A stretch of 64,000 nt of DNA from Xylanibacter muris (GCF_013166605.1 NZ_JABKKF010000001.1:434001-498000), one strand, 5' to 3'. Positions 4,882 through 36,026 are shown, numbered from the stretch's first letter. Numbers and translations: made by a program. The notes: generated by a model from the letters alone, not told the origin.

Positions 4882-7800
4882 ATGTATTTTGGAAAAAAAT
4901 TACTTTTAGCAACGGCGCTTACGTTGACTTCGCTAAGCGCAGGTGCAGAGATTGTTGACGGTGTGCGTCAGCCGCCTTTGTACCCACAGGTTACGAAGAC
5001 AGACTTGCAGTTCGACAAGTCGCTTCTGCTCTTTAACAAGGCTTCCGGATTCTTTTGCGGTGCAAACGATTGGAAGACACGTGCCAGTGTTTCCGAAAAC
5101 GGCTATAGGGTGTTTGTGAGCAAGCATCTTGATGCCGAGGGCGCATGGGACGGAAAGACAGTTGTCCTTAAGGATTCTGTCGAGAGAAACGGCAGCGGTG
5201 TATTGGTGAACACCATCCTGATGGTATGGGCCGCAGAGGACGGTGCATCATGGGTTGACTGGAACGGCCAGGCCGATACACTTTGGACCATCACTCCTGT
5301 AGGCGACAACTGGCGCATCTCGGCCAGCAGTGCTAATCCGGTATGTAACACTCCCGACACCTATTATGGCACTCAGAAAGGTAATCCCGATGAGACAAGG
5401 CTGTTCTGGAACCTTGCTCTCGACAAGGCTAATGCAGACTGGTATTTTGTAGACCCTGCGGTGTTTGCCACAGAGAAAGAGGCTTTTGAGGCCGCTATGC
5501 CTGCATATAAGGAGGCAGTGGAAATATATAAGGTGGCTCAGATTCTCAAGGCCCTTCTCGACGCAGCTGAGGCCGGAGGCGTTGATGTGGCCGCGCAAAA
5601 GGCTGTTTATCTGAATGAGAGTGCAACCAAAGAAGAGCTTGAGGCCGCCATTCAGGCAGTGAAGGACGCCATGGCTTCTGCGGAGGAAAACACGGTGACG
5701 GCTGATAATCCTGTTGACAAGACTGCTCTTATTGTCAATCCAAGTTACGATAACAATAATAATGACGGTTGGAGTGGCGATAAACCCGGCTTCCAGACAC
5801 ATACTGATGCCGAGTTCTATCAAAAGAAGTTTGACACCTATCAGAAGATCGGAACCGCTCCTAAGGGAGTATATGCACTTAGTGTTCAGGCATTCTACCG
5901 CTCCGGATGGGCTGCTGATGCTTATAGGAACTATAAGGACATGACCGGTTATGATGCAAAACTTTATGCTGTCAATGGCACCGACACGGTTTTGGCAAAC
6001 GTCGTTAACCCGTTCTCCGAGGCTCTTACCGAACCAAAGGGTATGAATGAAAGTTCTGTTGAAGACGGAGGCGTTACTTATTATGTACCTAACGATATGG
6101 AGACTGCAGAAGCTTACTTCATGGACGGTCTTTATAATAATAAGGTGTTCTTTGCTTCGGAAGACGGTACAATGACTATCGGTATGTATAAGAAGAATGG
6201 CGACCAGCCTGCCGGTAACTGGGTGCTGTACGATAACTGGGGCCTGAAATATTATGGTAATGGCGCAGACGCCTATACACTGTGGCTCACAGAAGTGAAG
6301 AATGCGGCCAAAGACTATTCCGCTCTTTCTGATGAGGTACTTGTTACCGTAGGTATGGTTGAGGCATATCAGAATGTTATCTCGGGTTTTGTTACAGCGT
6401 CCAATAAGGCAGAGGTCCTTGCAGCCATTGCAAAGATCAATGAAGAGGAAGCAAAAATAGAAGCCAACATCGCCGCATGGAAAGAATATCAGGAAGCAAT
6501 TGTCAAGGGTAAGAAGATTGCTAACGATGAGTCTATCATCGGTCAGGACAAGAATGACCTTGCCGATTATCTGGATCTTGAAAGTGAAGACATTCTCGCT
6601 GCCCTTACTCTTACTACAGAAGAGGTCGAGGCAGAGACACAGAAGTTGCTTGCCATGATAGAGGCTGCTATAAAGAACGGTATCACTCCCGGTACAGACG
6701 TTACAGACAAGTATCTTGTAAACGCAGACTTTGAGGTTAAGGACAAAGGATGGACTGTAAAGAAAGCAAGCGGCGGTGCTGTTGCTTACGGAGGTTCTTC
6801 TACAAACCAGTGCTTCGAGGCATGGAATAATGCAGACTTTGATGTATATCAGGAAGTAAGCAGCGCTCCTGTCGGTGTATACGAAATATCCGTTCAGGGA
6901 TTCTATCGTTACATGCGTGGTGCTAACGCATATAATGCATATTTGGATGAGACAGCTCCGAATGATGCTGTGAACATTTATGTGAATAACAGGAATGCAC
7001 ATTTCAAGAGCGTGTTCGACGAGAAAGTTGAGAACGGACAGCTTTACGAAGTGACAAAGGATAATCCTCCGTTTGTAGATCCGGATGAAGCATATTGGTA
7101 TCCGAACGATATGACAAACGGTAGTATCGCATTTGCCAACGGTATGTATAAGGCCACATCATTCGGTGTCGTTGCCAATGCAGGTGACGTTCTCCGTATC
7201 GGTGTTAAGGGTGCTACCAACCAGCAGGGCGACAGCTGGGCTATTTGGGATAACTTCAAGATGGTGTACAGAGGTACTGACGCAGAGGTTGTTAAACCGC
7301 TTCTTTCCGATGTTATTGCAGATCTTCAGACTACAATATCTGCAGGTAAGTCTGTAGGCAAGTCTGTTCTTGCAAATGCGAATACTGTTCTTGCCGCTGC
7401 GAATGAGGCTTTGAACGGCTCTGACGGCAAGGCAATGTTCCAGGCTTTGTGCGATGTGCTGGCTGCTGACGAGGCTATGAAGGCATCTGCCGCTCTCTTT
7501 GCAAATCTGAGTGCAAAGGCTGAGGAACTCAATGCGGCATATATATTGTCAGATGCTTCAGAGGCCACTAAGGCAGAAGCGTCAGCCCTGTTCTTTGAGA
7601 TTGCCGACGGTATTGCATCCGGAGCATTTGAGGACGAGGATGTGCCCGGTCTTATTGAGAAAGTTGATGCCCTGCTTATTAAGCTCGCTATTCCTGCAGA
7701 CGCGGCCAACGCTTCCGATGATAACCCTGTAGACCTGACAAAACTTATCAAGACTCCGGGCTTCGACGACGGTCAGGGTGCTAACTCTGTTGCCGGATGG

Positions 7801-8481
7801 GAAGGAACTGAAGGTTATAACTTTGGTAATGACGATACTCAGAAGGCAGCTCTTGCTCTTGAGTTCTACGAGAAGATCTTCAATATCAACCAGACTATAA
7901 CAGGTCTTCCAAACGGTACATATAAGGTTGCAGTATCTGCATACTACCGTTTTGGAAGTACAGACAACGACTATGCAGCTTATAAAGAGTCTACTATCGG
8001 CAATGCATTCCTTTATACAGTAGCCGGAGGCGATTCAATTTTAGTTCCTGTATGTCTGCTTGCTTCTGGTGCGCTTGAAGATATGGGTATTTCCGGTACT
8101 ACAAATATTTCCGGTACGGAATTGTATGTTCCTAATGACATGGTTTCTGCCACATCTTATTTCACAGACCTCAATGCTTATAATAATGAAATTATCGTGA
8201 AGGTCACCGATAACAAGCTTACTATCGGTATCAGAAAGGATGTGAAGGTTGGTTCAGACTGGGTGATCATGGACGGCTGGACACTTACATATTACGGTGA
8301 GAATAGTACTAAGGTACCTACAGTCGACATTGAAGGCGTAAGCAATAATACAGAGCCCGCAAATGTTGAGATATTCAACTTGAACGGTATCAAGATGAAC
8401 AGCTTCATCAAGGGTGTGAACATCGTCAAGATTACATCTGCAGACGGAAGTGTAACTATTAAGAAAGTAAACGTAAACTAA
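4882..8481 (+). CDS. Large secreted modular protein with three copies of a beta-sandwich-like module
   Basis: No enzyme family is recognised. A signal peptide (about 1-22) is followed by an N-terminal globular region (about 24-195) and helical, Ala/Glu-rich linkers (about 200-270, 460-600, 800-945) of FIVAR-like character. Three copies of one module lie at about 275-459, 604-798 and 947-1140. Each starts near a D-x-T-x-L/Y-I/L-x-N motif and carries an FYR motif, a YxPNDM motif and a closing W-x-x-x-D-x-W/F-x-x-x-Y. Related single copies end the GH51-GH43 protein and the HExxH protein downstream. A C-terminal tail (about 1148-1199, VEIFNLNGIKMNSF onward) resembles type 9 secretion sorting domains. 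A carbohydrate-binding or surface-scaffold role is the best guess. A terminator follows, so it may be a separate transcript. Confidence 0.85.
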   Translation: MYFGKKLLLATALTLTSLSAGAEIVDGVRQPPLYPQVTKTDLQFDKSLLLFNKASGFFCGANDWKTRASVSENGYRVFVSKHLDAEGAWDGKTVVLKDSVERNGSGVLVNTILMVWAAEDGASWVDWNGQADTLWTITPVGDNWRISASSANPVCNTPDTYYGTQKGNPDETRLFWNLALDKANADWYFVDPAVFATEKEAFEAAMPAYKEAVEIYKVAQILKALLDAAEAGGVDVAAQKAVYLNESATKEELEAAIQAVKDAMASAEENTVTADNPVDKTALIVNPSYDNNNNDGWSGDKPGFQTHTDAEFYQKKFDTYQKIGTAPKGVYALSVQAFYRSGWAADAYRNYKDMTGYDAKLYAVNGTDTVLANVVNPFSEALTEPKGMNESSVEDGGVTYYVPNDMETAEAYFMDGLYNNKVFFASEDGTMTIGMYKKNGDQPAGNWVLYDNWGLKYYGNGADAYTLWLTEVKNAAKDYSALSDEVLVTVGMVEAYQNVISGFVTASNKAEVLAAIAKINEEEAKIEANIAAWKEYQEAIVKGKKIANDESIIGQDKNDLADYLDLESEDILAALTLTTEEVEAETQKLLAMIEAAIKNGITPGTDVTDKYLVNADFEVKDKGWTVKKASGGAVAYGGSSTNQCFEAWNNADFDVYQEVSSAPVGVYEISVQGFYRYMRGANAYNAYLDETAPNDAVNIYVNNRNAHFKSVFDEKVENGQLYEVTKDNPPFVDPDEAYWYPNDMTNGSIAFANGMYKATSFGVVANAGDVLRIGVKGATNQQGDSWAIWDNFKMVYRGTDAEVVKPLLSDVIADLQTTISAGKSVGKSVLANANTVLAAANEALNGSDGKAMFQALCDVLAADEAMKASAALFANLSAKAEELNAAYILSDASEATKAEASALFFEIADGIASGAFEDEDVPGLIEKVDALLIKLAIPADAANASDDNPVDLTKLIKTPGFDDGQGANSVAGWEGTEGYNFGNDDTQKAALALEFYEKIFNINQTITGLPNGTYKVAVSAYYRFGSTDNDYAAYKESTIGNAFLYTVAGGDSILVPVCLLASGALEDMGISGTTNISGTELYVPNDMVSATSYFTDLNAYNNEIIVKVTDNKLTIGIRKDVKVGSDWVIMDGWTLTYYGENSTKVPTVDIEGVSNNTEPANVEIFNLNGIKMNSFIKGVNIVKITSADGSVTIKKVNVN

Positions 8482-8503
8482 GTCTTTATGACTGAAATTT
8501 AAT

Positions 8504-8542
8504 AAAGTAGGAGGCGGATAAACCTTTCCGCCCCTACTTTTT
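8504..8542 (+). terminator. Rho-independent terminator
   Basis: AAAGTAGGAGGCGG (8504-8517) pairs with CCGCCCCTACTTT (8528-8540) with one mismatch and ends in a T run. It separates the modular protein gene from the GH51 gene only 38 bp later, so downstream expression needs read-through or a nearby promoter. Confidence 0.8.
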
Positions 8543-8579
8543 AAACTAACAATAATTTATTATCTACGTAAAACCTGAA

Positions 8580-11500
8580 ATGAAAAGACTTTTGACTTTT
8601 TGGATACTGTGTGCCATCGCTATTTCCATGGTTGCACAAGTCAGCATGACTATTGACGCGACACGTCGGGGACCGCATATAGGACCCTATCACAACGGCC
8701 TCTTTTTCGAAGAGATAAATCATGCCGGAGACGGTGGCCTTTATGCCGAACTGGTGAGCAACCGTTCATTTGAAGACGGCCTTGCCAACTGGACAGCATA
8801 CAAGGGGACGGAAATAAGTCTGAAGACTAAAGGTCTGCTTAATGATGCACAGGCACATGCCCTGTCTGTGACTATCTCAGGTGCTTCAGAATCGAATATG
8901 AAAGGAATCGCGAACAGCGGATACTGGGGCATGAATATTGTGAAAGACTCGACATATAATCTCTCAATGTGGGTGAAAGGTGACGCTGCGTTCAATAACA
9001 AGATAATAGCACAGCTGCGTTCGAATGACGGGAAAAGCATATTGGGAAGAGCCGTATTAAAAGGCACGGTTAATAATACAGGTTGGAACAGGCTTTCTGT
9101 TTCTATTAAGGCAACCGCATCAGACAATAGAGGACAGCTATTGTTGCTCACGGGCACCAATGGCCATCTGGATCTGGATGTGGTTTCTTTGTTTCCTTAC
9201 ACGTGGAAGAACAGAAGCAACGGACTGCGTCCCGCCTTGGCACAGTTGTTGGCAGACACACGTCCTTCATTCCTGCGCTTTCCCGGAGGATGTTATGTGG
9301 AAGGCGAAGGCAGCTATGGAAACGCATTCCAATGGAAAAAGACAATAGGCCCCATAGAACAGCGTCCGGGGCATTATAATAAGAACTGGCACTATTGGTC
9401 ATCGGACGGTCTTGGCTTTGACGAATATCTTCAGATGTGTGAAGACCTTGGGGCCGCCCCGATGTTTGTGGTGAATATCGGTCTGGGCCATGGATTCTCC
9501 TTGTCGCATGATTCCACTCTCATACTTGTACAGGATGTACTTGATGCGATAGAGTATGCCAATGGTGATGCAGATACCGAATGGGGTGCAAGACGAATAG
9601 CCAACGGACATGCCGCACCTTATAATCTCAAGTTTATCGAGATAGGTAATGAAAACTATTCTCCGGGGGCGAACTCCGAGTACGCTGAACGGTATATTTT
9701 GTTTTATGATGCCATCAAGGCGAAATATCCAGAGATTGTGACCATAGGAAATGTAGAGGCATGGGGTACGGACAATCCTTCATGGGGTAATAACTATCCT
9801 GTTGAGATTGTAGACGAACACTACTACCGCACTTTCCAGTGGATGCGCAGCAATTACAATAAATATGACAACTATCCGCGTTTCCCTATCGTTTATAACG
9901 GAGAATATGCGGCCAACGGAGGAGGTTACGGCAAATACGGCAATATGAACAGCGCTTTGGGAGAGGCAATATATATGCTTGGTATGGAGCGTAACAGCGA
10001 TGTGTGCAGGATGGCTTCGTTTGCTCCTATCTTTACTCATGAAGAAGACCCCCGTTGGGCATACGACATGATACATTTCAACGCTTCCGACAATTTTGTC
10101 ACACCATCATACTATGTTCAGAAACTTATGAACATTAACCTTGGGAAGCAGAACCTGCTGTGGACAGAGAGCGGAAACAGACTGTCAAATATCAGTGATG
10201 TAAAGGTCGGATTAGGCTCATGGGGTACGCAGGTGGTATATGATGATGTTTCAGTTATCGGTTCCGATGGAAATATTGTAGCTTCCGACAATTTCAATGG
10301 CGGCATTGGAGCATGGATTGTCAATGACGGCAATTGGAATGTAAGTGACGGAACATTGGTGCAGTCTTCATTGGCAGAGAACTGTACGGCCGTGATGAAC
10401 ATACCCATGAACGGTAATTATACATATAAGGTGCGTGCGATGAAGACCGGAGGTAATGAGGGTTTTCTTATCTTGTTCAACTATCAGGACGGCCAGAACT
10501 ACGTATGGTGGAATATCGGAGGATGGAGCAACAGCAAACATGCGGTAGAGGTATGCAGCAATGGCTCAAAATCCACCGTGGCAGAGAAATCAGGCCGGGT
10601 GGAGAACAACAGATGGTATGACATCGAGGTGAAGGTGGACGGGGCGAATATTACATGCCTGCTTGACAATAAGGTAGTCCATGAATTCACCATGAGTGCC
10701 GACAGGGCATTGTATCAGAGTGTACAGATAGATGAAGATAAGGGTGAACTGATACTTAAGGTTGTAAATCCGAACTCGGAAGGTCAGACACTTAAACTCA
10801 ATATCCTTAATATGAGAATAGCCGACGGTACTGTTGTCCGTCTGCTTTCAAATGCAGGAACAGACGAAAATACGATGCAGACGCCTGATGTTATTGTTCC
10901 GACGGAAGGAGAGACGGTAGCCGTTGATGATGATACACACGCGACATTGGAAATACCGGCATATTCTCTGAATATCTTCAGACTGGGAGCAAGTGCGATA
11001 GGTGAGGAGGTAAAGATATCATATTCGGAATACGAGAAAGAGGATGAGAATATGGGAGCGTATCTTTATGCCCACATGAACGGACATGGTGAATACACAA
11101 ACTATGCGCTCAGCCTATACGGCAATAACTGGCAGGATATGTTAGGAGGGGCGGAAGTGTTTGACACAAAGGCCAATACTGTCACCGGAGGTATGCGTGA
11201 CGCTTATATCACCCGAATGCATGACGGAAATTTCATGCTTGCCGGAACCGATATGACTTCACGGTTGGGATGGACAAGCAACCATATCATGGTTCTTATG
11301 CTGTCTCCCGACCTTGTGCATTGGACTAAGAATGTAAAAATAGACCTTGAGTCCGCCGAGAATCTTGAGGCACTTGGCGGAATCACCGCAGAGGAGATGA
11401 CTGCAGCGTGGGCACCGCAGGTGATATATGACAAGGAAAGCGGTAATTATGTGGTATATTATAGCGTCGGTTTCCCGGACCGCCATCGTATTTATTACAG

Positions 11501-12830
11501 CATAGTTGACAAAGATTTGAACATACTTAGCCGTCCGGCTCTGTATTTTGACCCCGGCTATGATGTAATCGATGCAGATATAGTTTGGAATGATGTTGAC
11601 AAGCAATATGTGATGATCTACAAATGCGAGAAGACAACAGGGTTTGACCGTGCCACAGCTGACCATCTCATACCAAATGCTAATGAAACTAAAGGCACAT
11701 GCCAATGGACTGTGACACCTAACTTCCATTTCGGTGACAACAATCAGGCGATAGAAGCTCCTACACAGTGGAGGCGCATAGGGTCGGACAAATGGACGTT
11801 GGCGTATATCAACTATTCCGGCAACGGCTATGGATATAAAATGTGCAGCATGGACGAGCACGGGCTTAATATCGGCTCTCCTTCAATAATCAACGGAAAT
11901 GTGGATGCCCAGCATGGAAGTATATTAAAGATAACAACCGAGGAATACGACTATCTTAAGACCTGGGAGAAAGTGAAGATGCTTCTGCCCAAGGTGGAGT
12001 CATATTACAAGGCATGCAAGGTAGAGGCAATAGGTGATGCCATAGCCAAAGCCGAGAAGGCTCTTAACACAACCACAACCTTTGCACAGAACGTAAAGGC
12101 AATGGAAGCGGCCTATGCGGCATTGCTGGGATGTGAGGATATATATCTTGAATACATCAAACAGATGGGAGAGGCAGGCGCTGCTGTGGACATGACGGCA
12201 CTTATTGTCAATCCTGATTTCAGAGAAGGTGCGAGAGGATGGAGCACATCGGTTAATTTCACACAGGCTAACGGATATGTTGCGGAATTCTGGAATACTG
12301 CCTTTGACTTCTATCAGATAATAGAGAATATGCCAAAGGGTGAATATGAGCTTGGTGTGCAGAGCTTCTACCGGTACGGCTCCATTTCGGATGCCGTAAA
12401 TGCTCATAATAACGGTACAGAGAGGCTTAATGCCGTTTTATATGCAAATGGAGCTGAAGTCCCTGTAATGAGCATTTATGATGAGAGTGTAACACAGTAC
12501 ACACATTCGCCTTATACTTATCCGGACAACGTTACCGTAGCTAATGAGGCTTTCAATGATTATGGCTTATATACAAATACTGTAAAGCTGACGCTTGATG
12601 AAGCAGGACAGATAAAATTAGGTATAAGGAAAAAAGAGCATATATCTTCAGACTGGTGTTGCTTTGACAATTTCACCCTGAAGTATCTCGGTAATCCTGA
12701 TGCGATAAATAAAATAAGCCAAGGCAATGGCCGTAGTAAAAAAAAATACAATCTGGAAGGACAGGAAGTGAAAGGTAGGAAATCATATAAGGACATATAT
12801 ATAGTAAACGGAAAGAAAATAATAGAATAA
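8580..12830 (+). CDS. Secreted GH51-GH43 fusion, probable bifunctional alpha-L-arabinofuranosidase
   Basis: Two predicted glycosidases in one 1416-residue secreted chain. After a signal peptide (about 1-20), the GH51 catalytic part (about 25-530) opens with GLFFEEINHAGDGGLYAEL. Glu358 in EIGNEN is the likely acid/base and Glu442 in NGEYAANGG the likely nucleophile. A LamG/CBM-like sandwich (about 555-714) interrupts the GH51 C-terminal beta domain (to about 805). A GH43-like propeller follows (about 820-1130) with WAPQVIYD, VIDADIVW and Glu1059 in IEAPTQW. A short helical linker, one copy of the roughly 170-residue module shared with the upstream gene (about 1201-1372), and a basic tail with IYIVNGKK end the protein. 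It starts the compact gene train, with 15 bp to the next gene. Arabinose release from arabinan or arabinogalactan is inferred from the families. Confidence 0.9.
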   Translation: MKRLLTFWILCAIAISMVAQVSMTIDATRRGPHIGPYHNGLFFEEINHAGDGGLYAELVSNRSFEDGLANWTAYKGTEISLKTKGLLNDAQAHALSVTISGASESNMKGIANSGYWGMNIVKDSTYNLSMWVKGDAAFNNKIIAQLRSNDGKSILGRAVLKGTVNNTGWNRLSVSIKATASDNRGQLLLLTGTNGHLDLDVVSLFPYTWKNRSNGLRPALAQLLADTRPSFLRFPGGCYVEGEGSYGNAFQWKKTIGPIEQRPGHYNKNWHYWSSDGLGFDEYLQMCEDLGAAPMFVVNIGLGHGFSLSHDSTLILVQDVLDAIEYANGDADTEWGARRIANGHAAPYNLKFIEIGNENYSPGANSEYAERYILFYDAIKAKYPEIVTIGNVEAWGTDNPSWGNNYPVEIVDEHYYRTFQWMRSNYNKYDNYPRFPIVYNGEYAANGGGYGKYGNMNSALGEAIYMLGMERNSDVCRMASFAPIFTHEEDPRWAYDMIHFNASDNFVTPSYYVQKLMNINLGKQNLLWTESGNRLSNISDVKVGLGSWGTQVVYDDVSVIGSDGNIVASDNFNGGIGAWIVNDGNWNVSDGTLVQSSLAENCTAVMNIPMNGNYTYKVRAMKTGGNEGFLILFNYQDGQNYVWWNIGGWSNSKHAVEVCSNGSKSTVAEKSGRVENNRWYDIEVKVDGANITCLLDNKVVHEFTMSADRALYQSVQIDEDKGELILKVVNPNSEGQTLKLNILNMRIADGTVVRLLSNAGTDENTMQTPDVIVPTEGETVAVDDDTHATLEIPAYSLNIFRLGASAIGEEVKISYSEYEKEDENMGAYLYAHMNGHGEYTNYALSLYGNNWQDMLGGAEVFDTKANTVTGGMRDAYITRMHDGNFMLAGTDMTSRLGWTSNHIMVLMLSPDLVHWTKNVKIDLESAENLEALGGITAEEMTAAWAPQVIYDKESGNYVVYYSVGFPDRHRIYYSIVDKDLNILSRPALYFDPGYDVIDADIVWNDVDKQYVMIYKCEKTTGFDRATADHLIPNANETKGTCQWTVTPNFHFGDNNQAIEAPTQWRRIGSDKWTLAYINYSGNGYGYKMCSMDEHGLNIGSPSIINGNVDAQHGSILKITTEEYDYLKTWEKVKMLLPKVESYYKACKVEAIGDAIAKAEKALNTTTTFAQNVKAMEAAYAALLGCEDIYLEYIKQMGEAGAAVDMTALIVNPDFREGARGWSTSVNFTQANGYVAEFWNTAFDFYQIIENMPKGEYELGVQSFYRYGSISDAVNAHNNGTERLNAVLYANGAEVPVMSIYDESVTQYTHSPYTYPDNVTVANEAFNDYGLYTNTVKLTLDEAGQIKLGIRKKEHISSDWCCFDNFTLKYLGNPDAINKISQGNGRSKKKYNLEGQEVKGRKSYKDIYIVNGKKIIE

Positions 12831-12845
12831 CTAAAACTCACTAAC

Positions 12846-15557
12846 ATGAATTGCAAACAAGTCAGACGAGGTGCTTTTAGCCCCATGGTTGCAATAGGAC
12901 TGATGTTGGGAGCTGCCACATTATTTCAATCATGTGAGGACGATTTGCTCACAGGCCAGCCTTCATGGTTGGGCAACTCTATCTATGAAGAGTTGAATTC
13001 CGATGGCAACTACAAAACAATGCTCAGGCTTATTGACGATTTGGGGTTTCATGACCAGATGAGCCGTACAGGCTCTGTAACAATATTTGTTGCAGATGAT
13101 GTAGCCTTTGAAGAATGGTTTAAAACAAACAAAATGGGAGTTCGGTCGTACGAACAACTGTCGGTTGCACAGAAGAAACAGCTTCTCAACAAATCGATGA
13201 TTAACAATGCATATCTCATCGAGCTGATGTCGAATGTCAGTGCAGACCCGCCAGAGACAGGCATGGCAATGCGGCGTCCTAACTCAACAAGTGTGTTTGA
13301 TTCCATCTATGTGATGAAGCACGAGGATATGAACGGAGCCATGCCGGCATGGGCGTGGTACAAGCAGAACAAGAAGGATATCATTTTGTTTAAAGACGGT
13401 AGGATAATGAACGGAAGTTCGGTTGCGGGACTGTCGGAACCTATGATACATCTTCTGCCCGCATTTATGCAGAAGCAGGCTTTCACCGATGAGGACATAA
13501 AAATCCTGACCAATGGCAAGGCAACATCTGTAAACGATGCCTTTGTTGAGGGAAGAAAGGTCATTGAGCGTGATATAACCTGCAAAAACGGTTATATACA
13601 CAAAGTGGACGGAGTCATTGAAGGCTATGATAATATGGCGGAAATATTGCGCCGGCATCAGAACATGTCATTGTGGTCACATCTCATCGACCGTTTCAGT
13701 GCGCCATATTATGACAAGTACAAGACAGAAGAGTATAATCGTCTGTATGGAAAGAATGTTGATTCGGTATTTACGTTGCGTTATTTTGCCGATTCACGTA
13801 AAGACGGACTTGCTGCGACATCCTACCCGTTGACTTCCGGTAATCCGGTAGAGGAAAAAGTGCCGGCTACGCTTTCTTTTGATCCGGGGTGGAACCAATA
13901 CATGTATGAGAACACCAGCGGCTATGACCTTCATTATGATGCCGGTGCGATGCTGGTACCGGACAACGACGCTTTGCTTAGATGGTGGAATGCCGATGGA
14001 AAAGTGTTGAAGGATAAATATGGAACGTGGGATAATATTCCGGAGCTTGTGCTCTCCAAACTGTTGAGAGTGAACATGCTGGGGACATTTACAGATGCCA
14101 TACCGTCGAAATTCTCGTCAATCGTAAATGATGCCAAGGTATCGATGAATGTAAAGACATCGGATGTCGACAGTTGTTTTATCGGATGTAACGGTGTAGT
14201 GTATCTTACCAATCGTGTCTTCAGCCCAATGGAATATTCGAGTGTGTCTTTTCCGGCTCTTATACACCAGGATCTTATGAGTGTAATTTACTGGGCTATC
14301 GACGAACTGGAGTTCACACCCTATCTTAATTCAATGGACTCATACTATAGTCTGATGTTGCCGACGAACACGTCGATGCTCACATACGTGGATCCATGTT
14401 CATACGGAGAGTCACAGCAAACCCTTCTCGAGTTTTACTATGATGCCAGGGAGAAGAAAGTAAAGGCACGCCGCTATCTGTGTACCATAGGTGACAATGG
14501 CGAGATATCGATAGGACAGAAAATTGTCGAGAATGTGCCGGAAACACAGGTCAAGAACAGACTTAAAGATATTGTAAATCAGATGATTATCGTAGGCGAT
14601 GTGGAAAACGGCTACAGCTATTACAAGTCGAAGAACGGAACAATGGTCAAGATTTCCGATGCTGGTAAGTCAGGCCGGATGACTGTGGCCGGCGGATGGC
14701 AGATGGAGTATGGCACAGGAGTGAAAGTCGACTCTATTTATGATATGTCAGCGACGGGCAACGGTAAGTCTTACAGTCTGTCTGAACAAGTGCCCATGCC
14801 GGCATCAAAGTCTGTGTATCAGACATGTCTTGCCCATGAGGAATACTCCGAGTTCCTTAATCTGTTGATTGGCTCGCAGTATCTTGACAAGAATGACATT
14901 ATCCTTGCAAGCAGTGTCAAGCTCGGTGATAATAAATACAGTTGTCTTAATCCTACAGCTAACAGCAACATAAGTTTGTTCGGTACTTACAATTATACCG
15001 TATACATACCTACAAACGAGTCGATAAGACAATTGATAAATGACGGTATAATGCCGACATGGGACGATTTTGATGAGCAGTTCTTATTGTCGGAGAATGC
15101 CTCTACACAAGAAGAGAAAGATGCTGCCAAAGCTGCGTGCACAATGATAAAGAACCGTATATTGGATTTTGTGAAATATCATATCCAGGATAACGGAGTG
15201 GCTGTTAATGGTGCACCGGAAACAGGTGAGAACGGTGTCGCTATTATTAAGAACAACTATGAGACGATGGTGCTGAATGCAGAGACCAACCGTTATTATC
15301 CCGTTGAAGTGGATGTGGAAAACAAGGGGCTGAAAATAACCGACCTTACTGGTAATGTACGTAAGGTTGTGGAGAAAGACGGCCTGTATAATAATATATG
15401 TCGCGAGTACTGGGTATCAGGAACAGGCTTCAACAAGCTTCTGTATACATCAGCCGATGCTGTAGTTCATCTTATTGACGGACCTCTGTTCTACAGCTCA
15501 AGTCAGAAGACATTATGGAAGAATGAAATGTCGAATGCCAAATTGAGAAGGAGGTAA
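12846..15557 (+). CDS. Multi-FAS1-domain surface lipoprotein
   Basis: Signal peptide with lipobox LFQS-C (Cys30) followed by acidic residues, as in surface-exported Bacteroidetes lipoproteins. The 903-residue chain carries fasciclin (FAS1)-like units: the first near residues 40-110 (ending in TIFVADDVAFEEWF), a second from about 265 (ILRRHQNMSLWSHLIDRF), and further copies after about 420 and 670 (YTVYIPTNESIRQL). It sits 4 bp before susC, in the slot where SusE/SusF-type glycan-binding lipoproteins often occur, so surface capture or display of glycan is the likely role. No catalytic motif is seen. Domain number is approximate. Confidence 0.82.
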   Translation: MNCKQVRRGAFSPMVAIGLMLGAATLFQSCEDDLLTGQPSWLGNSIYEELNSDGNYKTMLRLIDDLGFHDQMSRTGSVTIFVADDVAFEEWFKTNKMGVRSYEQLSVAQKKQLLNKSMINNAYLIELMSNVSADPPETGMAMRRPNSTSVFDSIYVMKHEDMNGAMPAWAWYKQNKKDIILFKDGRIMNGSSVAGLSEPMIHLLPAFMQKQAFTDEDIKILTNGKATSVNDAFVEGRKVIERDITCKNGYIHKVDGVIEGYDNMAEILRRHQNMSLWSHLIDRFSAPYYDKYKTEEYNRLYGKNVDSVFTLRYFADSRKDGLAATSYPLTSGNPVEEKVPATLSFDPGWNQYMYENTSGYDLHYDAGAMLVPDNDALLRWWNADGKVLKDKYGTWDNIPELVLSKLLRVNMLGTFTDAIPSKFSSIVNDAKVSMNVKTSDVDSCFIGCNGVVYLTNRVFSPMEYSSVSFPALIHQDLMSVIYWAIDELEFTPYLNSMDSYYSLMLPTNTSMLTYVDPCSYGESQQTLLEFYYDAREKKVKARRYLCTIGDNGEISIGQKIVENVPETQVKNRLKDIVNQMIIVGDVENGYSYYKSKNGTMVKISDAGKSGRMTVAGGWQMEYGTGVKVDSIYDMSATGNGKSYSLSEQVPMPASKSVYQTCLAHEEYSEFLNLLIGSQYLDKNDIILASSVKLGDNKYSCLNPTANSNISLFGTYNYTVYIPTNESIRQLINDGIMPTWDDFDEQFLLSENASTQEEKDAAKAACTMIKNRILDFVKYHIQDNGVAVNGAPETGENGVAIIKNNYETMVLNAETNRYYPVEVDVENKGLKITDLTGNVRKVVEKDGLYNNICREYWVSGTGFNKLLYTSADAVVHLIDGPLFYSSSQKTLWKNEMSNAKLRRR

Positions 15558-20703: not shown

Positions 20704-22776
20704 ATGAAACGACTGAAATATATATTTTTCTGTGCGATGTGCGCACTTGCTGGTGTGATGACTGTAGGCTGTTCCGATGAACCGGACAAGGAGAATTTCT
20801 ATACATTCACCGGTGAGATGATGAGTGACTATTTAAGGAACAGGCCGGAATACAGTGATTTTGCATATATCGTGGATCAGGCCGGTATGACCGACCTGTT
20901 GTCTGCATACGGCCATTATACCTGTTTCCTGCCTTCGAATACTGTTGTGGATAACTATCTTCAGAAGAAAGGACTTTCCAGCGTAGAGGAACTGACTGTG
21001 GGGCAGTGTGACACAATAGCGCGTACACATTTGGTTAATAACATGTATGCTACTATCGACATGAATGACGGTACATTGAATACGGCAAACATGAATAAAC
21101 GGTATATACAGATTACACATACCACTGATGAGAATGACAACTCTGTAGTGCAGTTGAACCGAATGTCGAAAATCATCTTCGAACTTAAGGACGATTCTGT
21201 AGAGAATGGCATTGTGCAGCCAATCGACGTGTTGCTTGAAAACTCAAACAGTTCGATTTCCGACGTATTGAAGTCAAATGACAGAATAGGAATATTCTAT
21301 GAGGGACTGACTGCTACCGGTCTTCGTGACACGCTTATAAAGACCAGGGATGAATCGTATGACGGTTCAAAATATGATACATATTCATATACCTCGGACT
21401 TCTGGCGTGAGATAGCTGTAGCTCCTGAAGAGAAGAAATACGGATTCACGGTGTTTGTAGAGCCCGATGAATTGTATAAGAGAAAGTTCGAGGAATATGG
21501 CATATCTACAGCCGAAGGTAATGTGAAGGCGCTTTATGACCTTGCATGTAAGATTTACGACCCTGTGTTCGCGGGAGATGCCGATTATCAGGCAGCCTAC
21601 GGTTTCGACAAGCTTACGGAGAGATACAATCCCCTCAATATGTTTATAGCCTATCATATCCTTACACGTGATGTTATAGGATGGAATAAGCTTACACCGA
21701 TAGAACTTCATTCCGGTATCGTAGACGGTGCCATCGGAATCAAGATAGACAAGATGAATCCGAACGACTGGTACGAGACATTAATGCCGCATACCATGAT
21801 GAAACTCGAACAGGCAACGGTACGTGAATATCTTGGCGACTCGGAACGCGGACAAAGGTATATAAACCGCCGTATCGATGATAAGTTTGTCATTAAAGGC
21901 AGTAAAGTGTTTCCTACCGTTGAGGAAGTCTATCTTCAGGATGCGCCTAACGGACGCTATTTCTATATCGATGACATTATTGCCTTCAGCAAGGATACAC
22001 AGGAAAAGGTTATGAACGACCGTATACGTATGGACTTCTCCACAATCTTTCCTGAAGTGATGACAATGAACATGCGTCTTAACGGTGATCCGACGAAGGA
22101 TGACGAAAGTTCGAAGGCAGACCAGACATATAAGAACGGAAAGAACTACTGGTTCCCTAAAGGATACCTCGACAATGTGACTATGAAAGGCAATGGTGTT
22201 CTCGTATATCGTCGTCCTCACTGGAACTTCTGGTCATACGAAGGCGATGAGTTCAACCTTTTCGGTGATTATGACTTTACCTTCCGTTTGCCTCCGGTGC
22301 CATACGAGGGTGATTATCAGATCCGCCTCGGATTCTGTGCGCTCGATACCCGTGGTGTCGCTCAGATATATTTTGACGGAAAACCCCAGGGAATACCTGT
22401 AGACATGCGCAAGCGTCTTAACGACGAGTCCATTCTCGGAAATCAGTTCGGAACAAAGAAGTGGGCAGATATGACAGATGAGGAGAAGGCCGAGGATCAG
22501 AAAATGCTTAAGAATCTCGGTTATTATCGCGGTGCTTATGGCGGTTATCATTCGAGTGGTTCGACTATCAACGAGTTTGTCGACAATGAGCGTACATATC
22601 GCCTCGTGCTATGTACCGTACATATTAATCCAAAGCAAGACCATTTCATACGTGTGCGCTGTACATCATCCAGTAAGCTTGGTAATAACAATGAGTTTAT
22701 GATGGATTATCTGGAAATTGTTCCAAAGAGCGTGTATGGGGTTACATCCAGTGGTTCTATGGAGTCAGACTTGTAA
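20704..22776 (+). CDS. FAS1-domain lipoprotein with C-terminal beta-sandwich
   Basis: Lipobox VG-C (Cys23). A FAS1 unit (about 35-165; AGMTDLLSAYGHYTCFLPSN) and a second, more divergent one (about 180-430) are followed by a beta-rich C-terminal region (about 450-690; YEGDYQIRLGFCALDTRG, AQIYFDGKPQGIPVDM) that looks like a carbohydrate-binding sandwich. It lies between two SusCD pairs in the same gene train, which suggests a surface glycan-binding accessory role. No catalytic residues are recognised. Confidence 0.8.
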   Translation: MKRLKYIFFCAMCALAGVMTVGCSDEPDKENFYTFTGEMMSDYLRNRPEYSDFAYIVDQAGMTDLLSAYGHYTCFLPSNTVVDNYLQKKGLSSVEELTVGQCDTIARTHLVNNMYATIDMNDGTLNTANMNKRYIQITHTTDENDNSVVQLNRMSKIIFELKDDSVENGIVQPIDVLLENSNSSISDVLKSNDRIGIFYEGLTATGLRDTLIKTRDESYDGSKYDTYSYTSDFWREIAVAPEEKKYGFTVFVEPDELYKRKFEEYGISTAEGNVKALYDLACKIYDPVFAGDADYQAAYGFDKLTERYNPLNMFIAYHILTRDVIGWNKLTPIELHSGIVDGAIGIKIDKMNPNDWYETLMPHTMMKLEQATVREYLGDSERGQRYINRRIDDKFVIKGSKVFPTVEEVYLQDAPNGRYFYIDDIIAFSKDTQEKVMNDRIRMDFSTIFPEVMTMNMRLNGDPTKDDESSKADQTYKNGKNYWFPKGYLDNVTMKGNGVLVYRRPHWNFWSYEGDEFNLFGDYDFTFRLPPVPYEGDYQIRLGFCALDTRGVAQIYFDGKPQGIPVDMRKRLNDESILGNQFGTKKWADMTDEEKAEDQKMLKNLGYYRGAYGGYHSSGSTINEFVDNERTYRLVLCTVHINPKQDHFIRVRCTSSSKLGNNNEFMMDYLEIVPKSVYGVTSSGSMESDL

Positions 22777-29601: not shown

Positions 29602-29629
29602 GACAACGTTTATAACGATATAAGATAAT

Positions 29630-32600
29630 ATGGCTATGCACATGAATATATGTTTTAGATGGGCTATGTCATTGTTGGGTATGATGACGGTATCGGCAGC
29701 CATGGCTGCCAATACCGTCACTACCGTTAACAAGGTGACATCAGATGTGGTAATTTCCGATGATGTTGATTATCATATCACGGATGCCGTTCCGTTTTCT
29801 GCTACCGGAAGCATCAATATTACGGCAGTAGACCATGCGGTGATTATTTTCGACAATGTGAAACCTTCGAAGCTTGTCAGCTATCTTCCGTATGTCAGGA
29901 TAAATGGCGCCGATGCTGTCAATAACAGGACATGCCAGGTTAAGATATACAACCAGGGGTCTATGATTCTTCCATACGGCAGCGATATCAGGCCGCTTAC
30001 TGTCTATAGCGGACAGAACTTTACCGGTACGTCGGTGAGCGACTTCGGTCTGGAGAGTAACGGAGGCTTCATGAATACCCTTAAAGATGAGAAACTGAAC
30101 AACAAGATACGCAGTTTCAAGTTGAAGAGAGGGTATATGGTCACATTCTCTACACGTGCTGGAGGCTACGGCTATAACAGATGTTTTGTGGCTGATACGG
30201 AGGATCTGGAGATTGCGGAGCTGCCGGGAATCCTTGACCGCAGTATCTCCTCATACCGTATCTTCAAATGGAATGATGCCAGCAAGAAAGGTCTTGCCAA
30301 CGATACTCGCACAGTATCTAATGACGCTCTGAACACCACATGGTGCTATTCGTTCGGTCTTGGTGAGGATACCGGCATGGATCGTGAGTGTGTGGCACAT
30401 CATATTTATGAAGGGTGGCCGGCCATAGCCGACTGCGGCCGCAACAACTATACTACGTCTGCCCCTACCATGAAGACCAATAACGAGCCGGGAAACAAGT
30501 CTGATGATCATCCTCAGAGTGTTGCGGAGGTGCTTGCAAACTGGGAGACGCTGATGGCTACAGGATTGCGTCTGTGTTCGCCTTCTTCCCATGACGGCAG
30601 TCTTAACTGGCTGAAGGAATTCATGGATTCTGTGGATGCCAGGGGGTGGCGTTGCGATGTGTTGGACGTGCACTCCTATTGGCCGTCGGGCAGTTTCTAC
30701 AACCTGCAGTCATGGTATAACAGCTATGGTCGTCCGTTGTGGATATCAGAGTGGTGTTGGGGCGCGTCATGGAACAACAACGGTGTGTTCAACTCCGGAC
30801 TTTCCGATGAAGAGGCAAAGAGGCAGAATGCGGACAGGATAAAGGAACTGACTGAATTGATGAACGGCTATGGCTATGTGGAGCGTTTTGCCTATTGGAA
30901 TTCAGAGGCCGACCGTTCAAAGGTATATCTGAATGGCACTCTCACCGATGCAGGCAGAAACTATGCGGCATTGAAAGGTGTCATAGGATATAACAAGAAA
31001 TATGAATTTGTTCCGAAATTGCCAAAGGCTAAAGGAGCTCCTTCAAATCTTTCGTGCAGATTTAACGCTTCAACAGGAGTAGCGGTGCTTGGCTGGCATG
31101 AACCGAACGGAGAATATAATAAGAGCATGACTGTGGAACGCCGAAAGAAAGGGACTGCATGGGAGACGCTCATGGAAGTGGAACTGGAAGAGGGTGAGGC
31201 AGACTATAGAGTGGAAGATAATGAATCCTTTGACGGTGCCGAGTATCGCATACATGTTGTTTATTCGGATGGTAAAGACTATTATACAGCAAAGACAGCG
31301 ACAGCCGTTCCAGAAAAGATGCTTCCAGGCGATGCCATAGATGTTAACGGCAGGAAATACTATATAGGAGGCAACATACTGATTAACGGCAGTTTTGATT
31401 TCGGGACTCAGGGCTGGACTAACGGTGAAGGCGGCATTCTGTCTCTGCCGGATTTCGAGGTGTTACCAAAAGGAGGCTATGACGGAGGAACATACCTGCA
31501 GTCTTATTCCAACCAGTCATTAGACAAGGCAGGTTCGGTAAAGACCATGGTCGAACTTGAGAAAGGGGCTGATTACTATTTCAGTGCGGCCTCATATTAT
31601 AACGGCATGTCGGTAAACAAGCTGAGCATGACCCGTGACGGTGTTAAGGAAGACTCTGTTGTTGCCGGTATACCGAACAATGTTGTATGGTCGAAGTATG
31701 CCACGACATTCAATACGGGAACATACAGCAAGGCCTTGGTGGCGTTTTCCCACTTGGGAGCCCGCGCACAGTTTGACCAACTTTCAATATCACGTCTGTT
31801 CTTGTCAAAGGAAGAGGCTGTAGCAGACGGCTTGTCGGCAGAGACAAGAAGAGCACGGATGTTGCTTGATTTCAACAAGTCGCTTCCGCAATTGAACGAA
31901 GGTGTGAAGTCTGTTTTAGAGCAGGCCGGGAATACGGAGGAATACCTGTTGTCGCTGGTGTCAGTCATAGACAACACTATTGAGGCTCTCGGCATGAAGC
32001 GTATCGCTGACTCTGTTGCGGTTGTTGCTGGTGCGGCCATAGCCGAAGGCTTTGACGGCAGTGAAGAGCTGAAGGCCTCAATAGAGACATTGTCGTCAAC
32101 GACATCGGCGGAAACATATATTGGCGAGGTTGCCACGCTTGGCGAGAAGCTTGCCGTATGTATGCCGTTTAAAGAGACATCGTTTATAAAACATCCTTCC
32201 TTCGGGCAGCAAACCATTGACTGGAAAAGAACCGGTTCCTATACAGGAGGGGAACAGGGTATATCCGTTCAAGACGGAAAGAAATGCTGGAGCGCACTGT
32301 GGAAAGACATAAGCGCGTCGGAGCAGGACGGACTCACGATGGCTGTATCACAGAGGATTATCAAGGATGCCGGCGGTGAATATCTTTCACATGGCCTCTA
32401 TGTATTGGAATGTAAGGCTTCAACGCAGCATTATTGCGTTTCCGACCAGCATTCCTATATCGTGTATAAAGGAGACAGCATCGTCTCACCGATACTTTCC
32501 GCAGATTACCTTGACATTCCGGCAATAACCGGCAACGGCAAATGGCAGACGCTTATAACGCCTGCTGTCTATGTAAGCGACAAAGATACCCTGACAATAG

Positions 32601-33310
32601 GCTTCACCTCATCGAAGGCAAATGCTGTCGACAACGCCTGGAAACCGTATGGCGATAATAACGGAAAGGGCGACATGCGTGAAGGCAGCTGGTGTGCGAC
32701 GGATTTTGTGCTCCGTTATCTGCCCGTCTATCATTATAAGGCGGATGCAAGCGGATGGTCCACACTTTGTCTTCCGTATGATGCAACCCCGTCAAAAGGT
32801 GTAAGGTTTTATCAGATAGCAGGCGTCACGGCTGATAAGTCGCAGATCTGTCTTGAGGAAATAAACGGGAGTGCGGCAGGTGTTCCATGCGTGGTCTATT
32901 CAGATCATTCTGATGTCGTGATATATGAGACGGGAGAGAAAGTGACCAAGAGAACAGTCGGCCCTAACGGGCTCAACGGACTTTTTATCACATCGGCCAC
33001 GACGCCTGAGAACGGATTGGTGCTGAAAGATGGGAAATGGGTTATACAGAACTCTCCCAATCGTGATGAAAGGGCAAAGATCGGTGACTATTCCGCATAT
33101 ATAAAGAATATAGACAATATGACGGTGTTACAGGACTGGACGGGTGTCACTCTGCCTGTTAGCTCGCTTTTGTCATCTGTAAACAGGATAGACGCAGATG
33201 CCGGCAAGCCCGAATTCTATTCCTTGGATGGAATAAGATATGAGAAGGAACCGGAGTCGGGTGTCTATGTAAGGGTTGTTGACGGAAAAGCCGTTAAAGT
33301 GATGAAATGA
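29630..33310 (+). CDS. Secreted GH128-like glycoside hydrolase with accessory domains
   Basis: Predicted retaining endo-hydrolase of the Asl1/GH128-like TIM-barrel type. A signal sequence (about 1-27; in-frame ATGs at 29630, 29636 and 29642) precedes a beta-rich N-terminal region (about 30-200). The catalytic core (about 200-450) has Glu286 in MKTNNEPGN (likely acid/base) and Glu374 in LWISEWCWG (likely nucleophile). An FN3-like domain (about 470-560), a sandwich domain (about 575-725), a helical stretch (about 735-845) and further beta domains follow. The C-terminal tail has YSLDGIRYEKE and resembles tails of other secreted proteins here. GH128 enzymes characterised so far act on beta-1,3-glucan; whether this one cleaves a glucan or a beta-1,3-linked galactan side chain is open. 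It is the last gene of the 8580-33310 train. Confidence 0.8.
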   Translation: MAMHMNICFRWAMSLLGMMTVSAAMAANTVTTVNKVTSDVVISDDVDYHITDAVPFSATGSINITAVDHAVIIFDNVKPSKLVSYLPYVRINGADAVNNRTCQVKIYNQGSMILPYGSDIRPLTVYSGQNFTGTSVSDFGLESNGGFMNTLKDEKLNNKIRSFKLKRGYMVTFSTRAGGYGYNRCFVADTEDLEIAELPGILDRSISSYRIFKWNDASKKGLANDTRTVSNDALNTTWCYSFGLGEDTGMDRECVAHHIYEGWPAIADCGRNNYTTSAPTMKTNNEPGNKSDDHPQSVAEVLANWETLMATGLRLCSPSSHDGSLNWLKEFMDSVDARGWRCDVLDVHSYWPSGSFYNLQSWYNSYGRPLWISEWCWGASWNNNGVFNSGLSDEEAKRQNADRIKELTELMNGYGYVERFAYWNSEADRSKVYLNGTLTDAGRNYAALKGVIGYNKKYEFVPKLPKAKGAPSNLSCRFNASTGVAVLGWHEPNGEYNKSMTVERRKKGTAWETLMEVELEEGEADYRVEDNESFDGAEYRIHVVYSDGKDYYTAKTATAVPEKMLPGDAIDVNGRKYYIGGNILINGSFDFGTQGWTNGEGGILSLPDFEVLPKGGYDGGTYLQSYSNQSLDKAGSVKTMVELEKGADYYFSAASYYNGMSVNKLSMTRDGVKEDSVVAGIPNNVVWSKYATTFNTGTYSKALVAFSHLGARAQFDQLSISRLFLSKEEAVADGLSAETRRARMLLDFNKSLPQLNEGVKSVLEQAGNTEEYLLSLVSVIDNTIEALGMKRIADSVAVVAGAAIAEGFDGSEELKASIETLSSTTSAETYIGEVATLGEKLAVCMPFKETSFIKHPSFGQQTIDWKRTGSYTGGEQGISVQDGKKCWSALWKDISASEQDGLTMAVSQRIIKDAGGEYLSHGLYVLECKASTQHYCVSDQHSYIVYKGDSIVSPILSADYLDIPAITGNGKWQTLITPAVYVSDKDTLTIGFTSSKANAVDNAWKPYGDNNGKGDMREGSWCATDFVLRYLPVYHYKADASGWSTLCLPYDATPSKGVRFYQIAGVTADKSQICLEEINGSAAGVPCVVYSDHSDVVIYETGEKVTKRTVGPNGLNGLFITSATTPENGLVLKDGKWVIQNSPNRDERAKIGDYSAYIKNIDNMTVLQDWTGVTLPVSSLLSSVNRIDADAGKPEFYSLDGIRYEKEPESGVYVRVVDGKAVKVMK

Positions 33311-33358
33311 GCGTTTTCGCTAAGCCGGATGGACTATATACATATCCTATCTTCCACA

Positions 33359-33549
33359 GTGTAGGGACATGCCTTTGGCATGTGTCAGGCGACAACGACC
33401 ATACATCCCAATTCATTACACACACCATAGATATCGCAAAGCGATGGACTTAATCGTTGGAAGGACTCTTCAGAAAACAACCGTATATACGGTATACTCT
33501 TTGGAGAATGTTTGTACACATGACACATGCCGAAGGCACGTCCCTACAC
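33359..33549. mobile_element. MITE/REP-like element with 29-bp terminal inverted repeats
   Basis: The 29 bp at 33359-33387 (starting GTGTAGGGACATGCC) match the reverse complement of 33521-33549 at 27 of 29 positions. Each arm is itself a small hairpin (CATGCC-TTT-GGCATG). The 133-bp interior has only short palindromes (ATCGCAAAGCGAT; CCGTATATACGG) and no gene. No target-site duplication was seen. It resembles a non-autonomous repeat or paired REP sequences; transposition is not shown. Confidence 0.5.
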
Positions 33550-33582
33550 GGATGAATGCTATGGTATGAATGTTCTCGTTGA

Positions 33583-33627
33583 GCCAAACGGGCAATGTAA
33601 AAATAAGCTTGACATTGCCCGTTTGGC
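33583..33627. repeat. Perfect 16-bp inverted repeat, 13-nt loop, upstream of the HExxH gene
   Basis: GCCAAACGGGCAATGT (33583-33598) is the exact reverse complement of 33612-33627. The hairpin ends 47 bp before the preferred start codon. There is no following T run, so an operator or leader structure is as likely as a terminator. Confidence 0.6.
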
Positions 33628-33674
33628 GAGAAAAAGTTAGAATAAAATTCAAGATAATAAATAAAAATATTGGA

Positions 33675-36026
33675 ATGATTATGAGAACTTTCCTTTCTGT
33701 TTTTTTCGTTATGCTGCTGATGTCCGGACAGATATCAGCCCAAAGCATATCCGTTACTACCGACAAGCGTTTTGCCAGGGGAGCGACAATGGCTTTCGGA
33801 CGTATGACAGTCAAAGGTACGGATATTAAGGAAACAGGTTTCTGCTGGGCGGAAACTCCTGAACCTACTGTTGATGACAACAAGACAGTGAAGTATCTGT
33901 CGAAGAACGGTAAGATTTATTGGCTTCAGGACCTCACTCCCTCCACCTTGTATTATATGCGTGCATACGCTGTCGACAAGGAGGGAAAGGCTTATTACGG
34001 TGATGTCATAAAATTCTATACCATTCCTAAAGGCACCATCAGCTATACCATACGTGACGGTGGTGCGGATGATGTGAAGACGCGAATTGCCAATGCAACG
34101 AAAAGTGCCGTGGATTATTGGAACAATCTTACTTCCATAACAGGCTTCTCCACAAGTGTGGGCTATGAAGCCGGTGTACAGACGGCCGACTGTTCTTATG
34201 GCGGATGGGTGAGGGTCGGGCCTAACGCTTCTTATCAGCGCACAGGCACTATCCTCCATGAGCTTCTTCATGGTGTGGGTGTGATTCCATGGGCGGATAC
34301 GGAGTGGAGCCGTCATAATCTGCGTGCTTCAGTCAACGGTGACGGATATGGCACCGGTGCATGGCTGGGCGACCGTGTAACCGAGGTTGTGAGGTTTCTT
34401 GCCAACAATAATACGGAAGTTCTTAACGGTGATTATCAGCACATGTGGCCATACGGTATCAACGGAGCACATGAGGATGACGGAACAGAGATTCTTTATA
34501 TAGGAAACGGTCTTGTATGTCAGGCTCTTGGGGAAGACGGCCTCCAGCATACCGCCACAAGCTTCTCGCGTCCTTATTATTCTTTCTGTCATGAGGACGG
34601 CAAGAAATACTATATTAAAAACGAGTCGGCGGAGTTCGGCCTTTACACTTCTTACCTTATTCCCTCCAAGTCGGGAGCTCTTGTATGGAAGACAATGACC
34701 GCCGCTCAGGCCGTTGGAAACGACAGTGCCGCATGGACAATAACGTTCACACCGCAGAATCAGTATTACCAGCTGAAGAATGTCGCCACGGGAAGGTATT
34801 TCAGCTATAGCGGCGCAGGAATCAACGGCATAACCACCTCTGCGGTCAGTGCGGCGTCTTCAACGGAGAATTTCCAGCTGATGCGCGGACGTAAGGATAT
34901 TGCGGTAGGCGGGATGTCATTACCGCAGCGCGGATACTGGATTATATATCCAGAGAGCAATTGGTCGCCCAAATGTCTGCAGGCGAATGCCGGGGAGAAA
35001 ACATCGGCCATGACATTCAACATATCCAATACCGCTGACAGCCAGCGTTGGCTGATACTTTCTGCCGAAGAGCTGGCAGACGTAGAGGCAATGGCAGTGG
35101 ACGGCATAAAAACGGAGATAGCAAAGGCCCTTTCTGTGTTGGAGGACCTGATTGGCGTTCCACACACAGAGGATGTGGAGGGAGTAGATGATGAGGTGGC
35201 GTCAACAATCTCGAGGGTGTGGTCGGTCATGCAGACTTCTGTAGACATTTCCGAATTGAATTCCATGCAGGGTGAAATTCGTGACGCAACGTTTGCTTTT
35301 CTCAATGGAGCGACACCGTTGAGCGAAAGCCAGCCGTTTGACCTTACATATATGCTTGTCAACTCCGGAATGGATTCGGCTGAAGGATGGTCGGTGGCTC
35401 CTGCAGTCAATCATTCGTGCGGCGAGTTTTATGAGAAAACGTTCGATATGAACCAGATATTGACAGGCATGCCTGCCGGCACGTATCAGTTGCGCGCTAA
35501 AGGATTTCAGCGGCCGGGCTCCTCTGCTGATGCCTGGGCGAAGTATTCTTCTGGGCAGAGCAGGGTTACGGCTTTCCTTTATTTAGGCTCCGCCGCACAG
35601 AAATTGAATGATATATGTGCTTGTGCCTCAGACACGAAGTTGGGCGGAAGCGAATCATCTGTCGGCTCGCCGGTTAAATATATTCCCAATGACATGAAGT
35701 CGGCGAGTATTTATTTTTCCCGTGGATTATACGAAAATGCAGTGGTATATGAGAACAAGACAAAAGGAGCGTCGTTGAAACTCGGTGTCCGTACTGCAAA
35801 TATGCCGGAAAAGTATTGGTGCATATTCGATGATTTCCGGCTGTATTTCTTTGGAAAGACCCCGAAAGAGGCTCTTGGCATAGAGGAGGTGCATGCGGAT
35901 GGTGCGTACAGCCGCCGGTCGGGAGTATATTCTTTGGACGGACGTATTGTAAATAGAGATGCCTCGGCATTTGGGTCGTTGCCTAAAGGGATATATATTG
36001 TCAACGGCAGAAAACTGATTAAATAG
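33675..36026 (+). CDS. Secreted HExxH metallopeptidase-like protein with beta-trefoil and shared C-terminal module
   Basis: I chose the start at 33675 (33681 also possible) because the signal peptide MRTFLSVFFVMLLMSGQ begins there. A fibronectin-like domain (about 25-120) is followed by a peptidase-like region with TGTILHELLHGVGVIPW: His195, Glu196 and His199 form an HExxH zinc motif. The metzincin third His is replaced by Pro, so the third ligand would have to be elsewhere (Glu210 or His214 are near). A ricin-like beta-trefoil (about 300-465), a helical linker, one copy of the roughly 190-residue module (about 553-745; YIPNDMKSASIYF) and a tail with GIYIVNGRKLIK complete it. The position suggests attack on the protein part of a plant proteoglycan, but peptidase activity is only inferred. 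Confidence 0.78.
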   Translation: MIMRTFLSVFFVMLLMSGQISAQSISVTTDKRFARGATMAFGRMTVKGTDIKETGFCWAETPEPTVDDNKTVKYLSKNGKIYWLQDLTPSTLYYMRAYAVDKEGKAYYGDVIKFYTIPKGTISYTIRDGGADDVKTRIANATKSAVDYWNNLTSITGFSTSVGYEAGVQTADCSYGGWVRVGPNASYQRTGTILHELLHGVGVIPWADTEWSRHNLRASVNGDGYGTGAWLGDRVTEVVRFLANNNTEVLNGDYQHMWPYGINGAHEDDGTEILYIGNGLVCQALGEDGLQHTATSFSRPYYSFCHEDGKKYYIKNESAEFGLYTSYLIPSKSGALVWKTMTAAQAVGNDSAAWTITFTPQNQYYQLKNVATGRYFSYSGAGINGITTSAVSAASSTENFQLMRGRKDIAVGGMSLPQRGYWIIYPESNWSPKCLQANAGEKTSAMTFNISNTADSQRWLILSAEELADVEAMAVDGIKTEIAKALSVLEDLIGVPHTEDVEGVDDEVASTISRVWSVMQTSVDISELNSMQGEIRDATFAFLNGATPLSESQPFDLTYMLVNSGMDSAEGWSVAPAVNHSCGEFYEKTFDMNQILTGMPAGTYQLRAKGFQRPGSSADAWAKYSSGQSRVTAFLYLGSAAQKLNDICACASDTKLGGSESSVGSPVKYIPNDMKSASIYFSRGLYENAVVYENKTKGASLKLGVRTANMPEKYWCIFDDFRLYFFGKTPKEALGIEEVHADGAYSRRSGVYSLDGRIVNRDASAFGSLPKGIYIVNGRKLIK

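Follow-up and report, generated by a model that had tools for sequence, protein, structure and literature searches.

A 64,000-nucleotide stretch of the Xylanibacter muris genome (GCF_013166605.1, NZ_JABKKF010000001.1:434001-498000; hereafter the window) encodes five homologous copies of a protein module of about 170 to 195 residues, spread over three secreted proteins. The module is real, widespread, and unnamed, and probably represents a divergent relative of carbohydrate-binding module (CBM) family 61 that has an insert of its own and would likewise bind carbohydrate. We regard it as likely that the module is a sugar-binding beta-sandwich of the CBM61 lineage and that the proteins that carry it would leave the cell through the type IX system and stay on its surface.

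The three open reading frames (ORFs) in which the initial annotation had seen the repeated module all exist as described: 4882-8481 (4882 protein), 8580-12830 (GH51-GH43 protein), and 33570-36026 (HExxH protein; TILHELLHGVGV). When all six-frame ORFs of the window were searched with a profile built from 36 copies, five full-length matches and no more came up, and the next best match scored 2.4 bits. All five lie on the plus strand. The 4882 protein has three copies, A1 (5704-6264, residues 275-461, 186 bits), A2 (6694-7281, residues 605-800, 173 bits), and A3 (7720-8304, residues 947-1141, 185 bits), the GH51-GH43 protein has copy B (12183-12695, residues 1202-1372, 195 bits), and the HExxH protein has copy C (35331-35861, residues 588-764, 203 bits). 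Four of these intervals agree with those first proposed; the fifth, placed at residues 553-745 of the HExxH protein, had started about 35 residues early and ended before the closing motif. Significant profile similarity connects all five segments: when each copy was held out in turn, a profile of the other four recovered it at 84-139 bits (E-values 5.5e-25 to 8.7e-42), whereas the best of 200 shuffles per copy reached 4.5-8.5 bits, and BLASTP between pairs of copies gave E-values of 3e-32 to 5e-7. The motifs named at the outset are present, namely D-x-T, N-P-x-F, GW, E-F-Y/W...F-D-x-x-Q, P-x-G-x-Y, F/Y-Y/Q-R, Y-x-P-N-D-M, and a closing W-x-x-x-D-x-F/W-x-L-x-Y-x-G, and the GH51-GH43 copy has a degenerate P-D-N-V where the others have PNDM. 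Two accessory regions (565-715 and 855-1080) of a glycoside hydrolase-like protein at 29630 were rejected as further copies, as they do not match the module profile. The description of the module as unassigned holds for Pfam and NCBIfam, in which no family scored above cut-off on the module in the four window proteins and 36 copies scanned. DUF5013 (PF16405) stays below its gathering cut-off and matches only 3 of the 36 long modules at all (best E-value 0.013). We found no description of the module in the literature searched.

Searching all PDB sequences with the 36-copy profile (hmmsearch) yielded just two matches below 0.01, both of which are CBM61 domains of GH53 galactanases: 9fli (chain E-value 1.9e-7, best single-domain i-E-value 0.0085) and 2xom (E-value 0.007, domain i-E-value 0.085). 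These alignments cover only the first 60-70 and last 30 profile positions and leave the middle unaligned. The long module and CBM61 are bridged by a short sister module of about 135 residues, which has the same opening and closing motifs and is present in many carriers (L204, L207, L212, L222, L223, L253, and others). A profile of twelve short modules (alignment A6) matches 9fli (E-value 4e-21) and 2xom (E-value 3.5e-8) over the full length, aligns with the long-module profile at 99.6% probability (E-value 1.5e-24), and, in a search of the X. muris genome, recovers all but one of the five window copies (best E-value 3e-9). It has no Pfam family above cut-off (best is DUF5013, E-value 2.8e-4). 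Profile-profile alignment with hhalign against three CBM61 sequences, taken from the printed alignments of the short-profile PDB search and then aligned, gave 98.9% probability for the short module and 97% for the long module (E-value 1.2e-10 over 125 columns with the insert gapped, from a single comparison rather than a database search), and an unrelated beta-trefoil profile used as a negative control gave 1.5%. The short module thus stands nearer to CBM61 than the long module does. Because it matches both the CBM61 structures and the long module, we conclude from these profiles that the long module and CBM61 probably share common descent, and that the long form would have gained an insertion of about 40 residues.

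This relationship is visible in the motifs. The CBM61 domains of the Thermotoga maritima GH53 module (2xom/2xon) and of the GH53 galactanase 9fli share with the long module the opening N-P-x-F-E, a W, Q-x-x-x-x-L-P-x-G-x-Y, and the closing G-x-x-x-I-G...W-x-x-x-D-x-F-x-L. A beta-sandwich, as in CBM61, is also predicted for the long module. CBM61 is about 140-150 residues long without a large insert, whereas the long module has 170-195 residues, a conserved FYR, and the extra element, which comprises YxPNDM, a helix, and YxN. This element lies near the FYR, after the strand with 'LYA' and ahead of the one that precedes 'GxLxIG', and in copy C it spans 35622-35735 on the plus strand (about residues 685-722, ...YIPNDMKSASIYFSRGLY...). 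It appears as a gap in the long-versus-short profile alignment, and it is absent from the short modules, which otherwise have the strand order and closing motif of the long module. Over 205 copies, the P is conserved in 88%, N in 77%, M in 72%, F in 90%, and Y in 93%, and the Arg of the neighbouring FYR in 96%. Judged by this conservation, the insert is a conserved element and not a loose loop.

The insert bears on whether a new family is needed at all. The module could simply be a diverged CBM61 with the same specificity for beta-1,4-galactan or terminal galactose, as its profile kinship to 9fli and 2xom and a locus of galactan type would allow. We think this doubtful, as the direct match is marginal and neither CBM61 nor the short modules have the insert with its own motif. 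Furthermore, a structural study (PMC10509167) mentions maltooligosaccharide binding by the CBM61 of a GH31 enzyme, so that even assignment to the family would leave the ligand undecided.

AlphaFold2 modeling of copy C with the 36-copy alignment gave a mostly-beta domain with two helices at high confidence (predicted local distance difference test score, pLDDT, 96.7; predicted template modelling score, pTM, 0.91). In the model the domain forms a beta-sandwich like those found in CBMs. Foldseek searches of the PDB with this model returned weak matches (best E-value 1.4e-3, template modelling (TM) scores of about 0.4-0.5), and many of the top ones are beta-sandwich sugar binders, namely a putative D-arabinan-binding CBM of EndoMA1, a porphyran-binding CBM, CBM22, TmCBM61, and CBM16. 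The match to 2xom has a probability of 0.99, an E-value of 4.8e-3, and TM scores of 0.42/0.51, and a search of a viral structure library mostly matched generic phage sandwich folds. The EndoMA1 domain (8hhv), which its authors compare with CBM4-2 and CBM61 (PMC10509167), and the porphyran-binding CBM (8xmz) are the best PDB matches; both were rejected as members of the same family, being distant in sequence (about 10% identity, TM scores of about 0.4-0.46). CBM112, a mannan-binding module of Bacteroides GH26 of about 115 residues (limits 239-355 and 240-354; PMC13357471), resembles the module in that it is a Bacteroidota CBM inside or beside enzymes, with a C-terminal tail of 30-40 residues in some proteins. 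It was set aside by its published description, in which both its length and the spacing of two key tryptophans misfit.

The domains that accompany the module fit the use of a CBM in part. Pfam annotation of 61 carriers identified GH51, GH43, GH30, GH27, PL11 rhamnogalacturonan lyase, alginate-lyase-like, Laminin_G_3, and ricin lectin domains, and also CotH kinase with lamin-tail domains, BspA repeats, DUF6055, a tyrosine-phosphatase-like domain, and dockerins; metallopeptidase-like proteins carry the module as well. The module is a separable add-on, like CBMs, since relatives of its host proteins exist without it: GH51 relatives of 816-824 residues (G049, G009, G034) have neither the GH43 part nor the module, and in L145 and L146 the HExxH relative has no module, though the same loci include the triplet protein and the GH51 gene. 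It is thus a discrete domain that is attached to, yet separable from, carbohydrate-active enzymes (GH51, GH43, GH30, GH27, and PL11). The suggestion that it is an undescribed CBM is accordingly plausible given the predicted beta-sandwich, the remote CBM61 kinship, and the many secreted catalytic partners, with the reservations that CBM61 is a detectable far relative and that some partners are not carbohydrate-active. In more distant relatives (L258, L259) the module lies beside DUF6055 (E-value 1e-147 or better).

Most carriers have a single module: among 142 complete carriers, one full copy occurs in 106, two in 24, three in 10, four in 1, and five in 1. In 108 of them the last module lies within 90 residues of the C-terminus, beside a sorting-like tail; in 27 the module is only internal and in 7 it is N-terminal. 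N-terminal modules occur in L208, L209, L210, L241, and L265, two of which (L208 and L241) are CotH-kinase/lamin-tail proteins with no obvious role in the use of nutrient glycans. The tails resemble those of the 4882 protein (8305-8481, plus strand; weak TIGR04183 match, E-value 3), a tail type common among module proteins, and of the HExxH protein (35862-36026, plus strand; YSLDGR...LPKGIYIVNGRKLIK, identified with a tail profile). Trained on 40 carriers, this profile matched 91 of the 102 module proteins kept aside for testing, as against 70 of 940 non-module ORFs, a contrast that is somewhat overstated as the controls include spurious ORFs. The genome encodes the type IX translocon SprA (2632 bits), so type IX export is available, and the short tails are putative type IX signals, which TIGR04183 itself matches weakly. 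About ten carriers of Prevotella-type genomes have dockerin-type repeats (GDVNGDGTVDVADIS...) in place of the sorting-like tail (L116, L118, L128, L130, L131, L140, L142, L149, L213, and L266).

This architecture would also suit a domain for surface assembly or anchoring, by which unrelated type IX cargo docks to a common surface partner or to the cell's own surface polysaccharide. The position of the last module beside the tail, the absence of a lipobox-like motif from 138 of the 142 complete carriers, and partners that act on unrelated substrates all agree with such a role, and a single shared ligand would explain why FYR and PNDM are largely kept in all carriers. The internal and N-terminal modules do not, the carrier sample is skewed to HExxH orthologues, and relatives with known function bind sugars; we therefore consider anchoring unlikely.

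The 4882 protein argues in the same direction. No catalytic domain is recognised in it beside its predicted beta-trefoil and its three modules, and proteins of this triplet layout come from about ten of the sampled species. In a tree of the modules, copies 1, 2, and 3 each cluster by position, with 2-3 label changes versus about 10 in shuffles. Since they group by position across about ten species, the copies are old and not interchangeable; they diverged before these species did and stayed distinct, which fits different ligands or a different geometry and speaks against a common docking partner. It also fits poorly with the module being a structural spacer without a ligand that is carried along with secreted proteins, an idea to which the helix-rich spacers and repeated units of the window proteins lend some appeal. 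We judge this very improbable, given that the polar and aromatic positions are so highly conserved (R 96%, Q 99%, E 90%, Y 93%).

Several observations weigh against reading the module as a CBM61-derived CBM. Taken domain by domain, the direct match to CBM61 is weak, nothing in CBM61 corresponds to the inserted region, and the hhalign values come from single comparisons with a very small CBM61 set. With every Foldseek E-value above 0.001 and TM scores of about 0.4-0.5, the fold assignment leans partly on the sequence profiles. CotH kinases, BspA repeats, tyrosine-phosphatase-like domains, and DUF6055 are not glycan enzymes, and these and the metallopeptidase-like partners make another type of ligand possible. 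Finally, since the sugars bound by CBM61-type folds differ, the fold does not reveal the ligand.

For the sugar we turn to the gene context. The GH51-GH43 protein has GH51 and CBM4_9 matches by Pfam and a GH43-like part, and a further GH43 protein is encoded at 3256, upstream of the 4882 gene. The latter is, by the look of its sequence, a candidate GH43_24 exo-beta-1,3-galactanase, and the window translations presumably include two SusC/SusD-like pairs. Because of these genes we infer that the locus is type II arabinogalactan-like, which suggests type II arabinogalactan as the ligand in this cluster. If the carbohydrate-binding reading is correct, modules B and C may keep the arabinofuranosidase/GH43 enzyme and the HExxH protein attached to this polysaccharide, and the 4882 protein may be a multivalent glycan-capturing surface protein.

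The remaining parts of these proteins are heterogeneous. The 4882 protein begins with a predicted beta-trefoil (4945-5469, plus strand, about residues 22-196; AlphaFold2 on 18 homologues, pLDDT 92.7) and a helical spacer after it; the Foldseek matches of the domain are beta-trefoils, namely Kunitz inhibitors, FGF1, lectins, and BT0265. Helix-rich spacers, assigned by sequence character only, also separate A1 from A2 (6265-6693) and A2 from A3 (7282-7719), both on the plus strand, and no similarity between spacers that would make them a repeated unit was detectable. Antisense to A1 and A2 runs an open frame of 584 aa (5248-7002, minus strand), and nothing supports its status as a gene. The N-terminal part of the HExxH protein weakly matches the NCBIfam model for BT0360, and a ricin-like trefoil stretch falls just below the Pfam cut-off. 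The HExxH protein is widely conserved in Prevotella-type genomes, and its carriers include Prevotella communis E15-14, Xylanibacter rodentium, and Marseilla massiliensis. Fasciclin-domain proteins (12846-15557 and 20704-22776) adjoin the SusCD-like pairs, and similar genes occur in related loci.

The module is largely confined to Bacteroidaceae. The X. muris genome has five full copies, all inside the window, one further distant relative of the short type (C1:371492-371944, in a 1443-aa protein), and weaker matches elsewhere. We found the module in 23 of 60 genomes of the genus sample, in 108 of 299 genomes and 13 of 27 genera of the family, and in 8 of 294 genomes of the order, including that of X. 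muris, which was the only carrier in a phylum sample of 395 genomes almost all from outside the order. In the family, order, and phylum scans 8-11 candidates were scored per genome, so that per-genome counts are lower bounds; four rich genomes for which all candidates were scored have 41, 44, 36, and 32 matches at an E-value of 1e-5, including partial ones.

A bolder and quite unlikely possibility is that the insert forms a new site shared by all copies, and that one common target, for example the cell's own surface polysaccharide or a scaffold, gathers dozens of unrelated type IX cargo proteins; if true, this would be a surface assembly principle like that of cohesin and dockerin, built on a lectin fold. 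Some Bacteroidaceae genomes have 32-44 matches to a module that neither Pfam nor NCBIfam names, in proteins whose targets include pectin and arabinogalactan. Knowing the ligand would annotate many proteins that Prevotella-like bacteria of the rumen and gut secrete, and would show what the enzyme-free module proteins hold and whether a new CBM family belongs beside CBM61.

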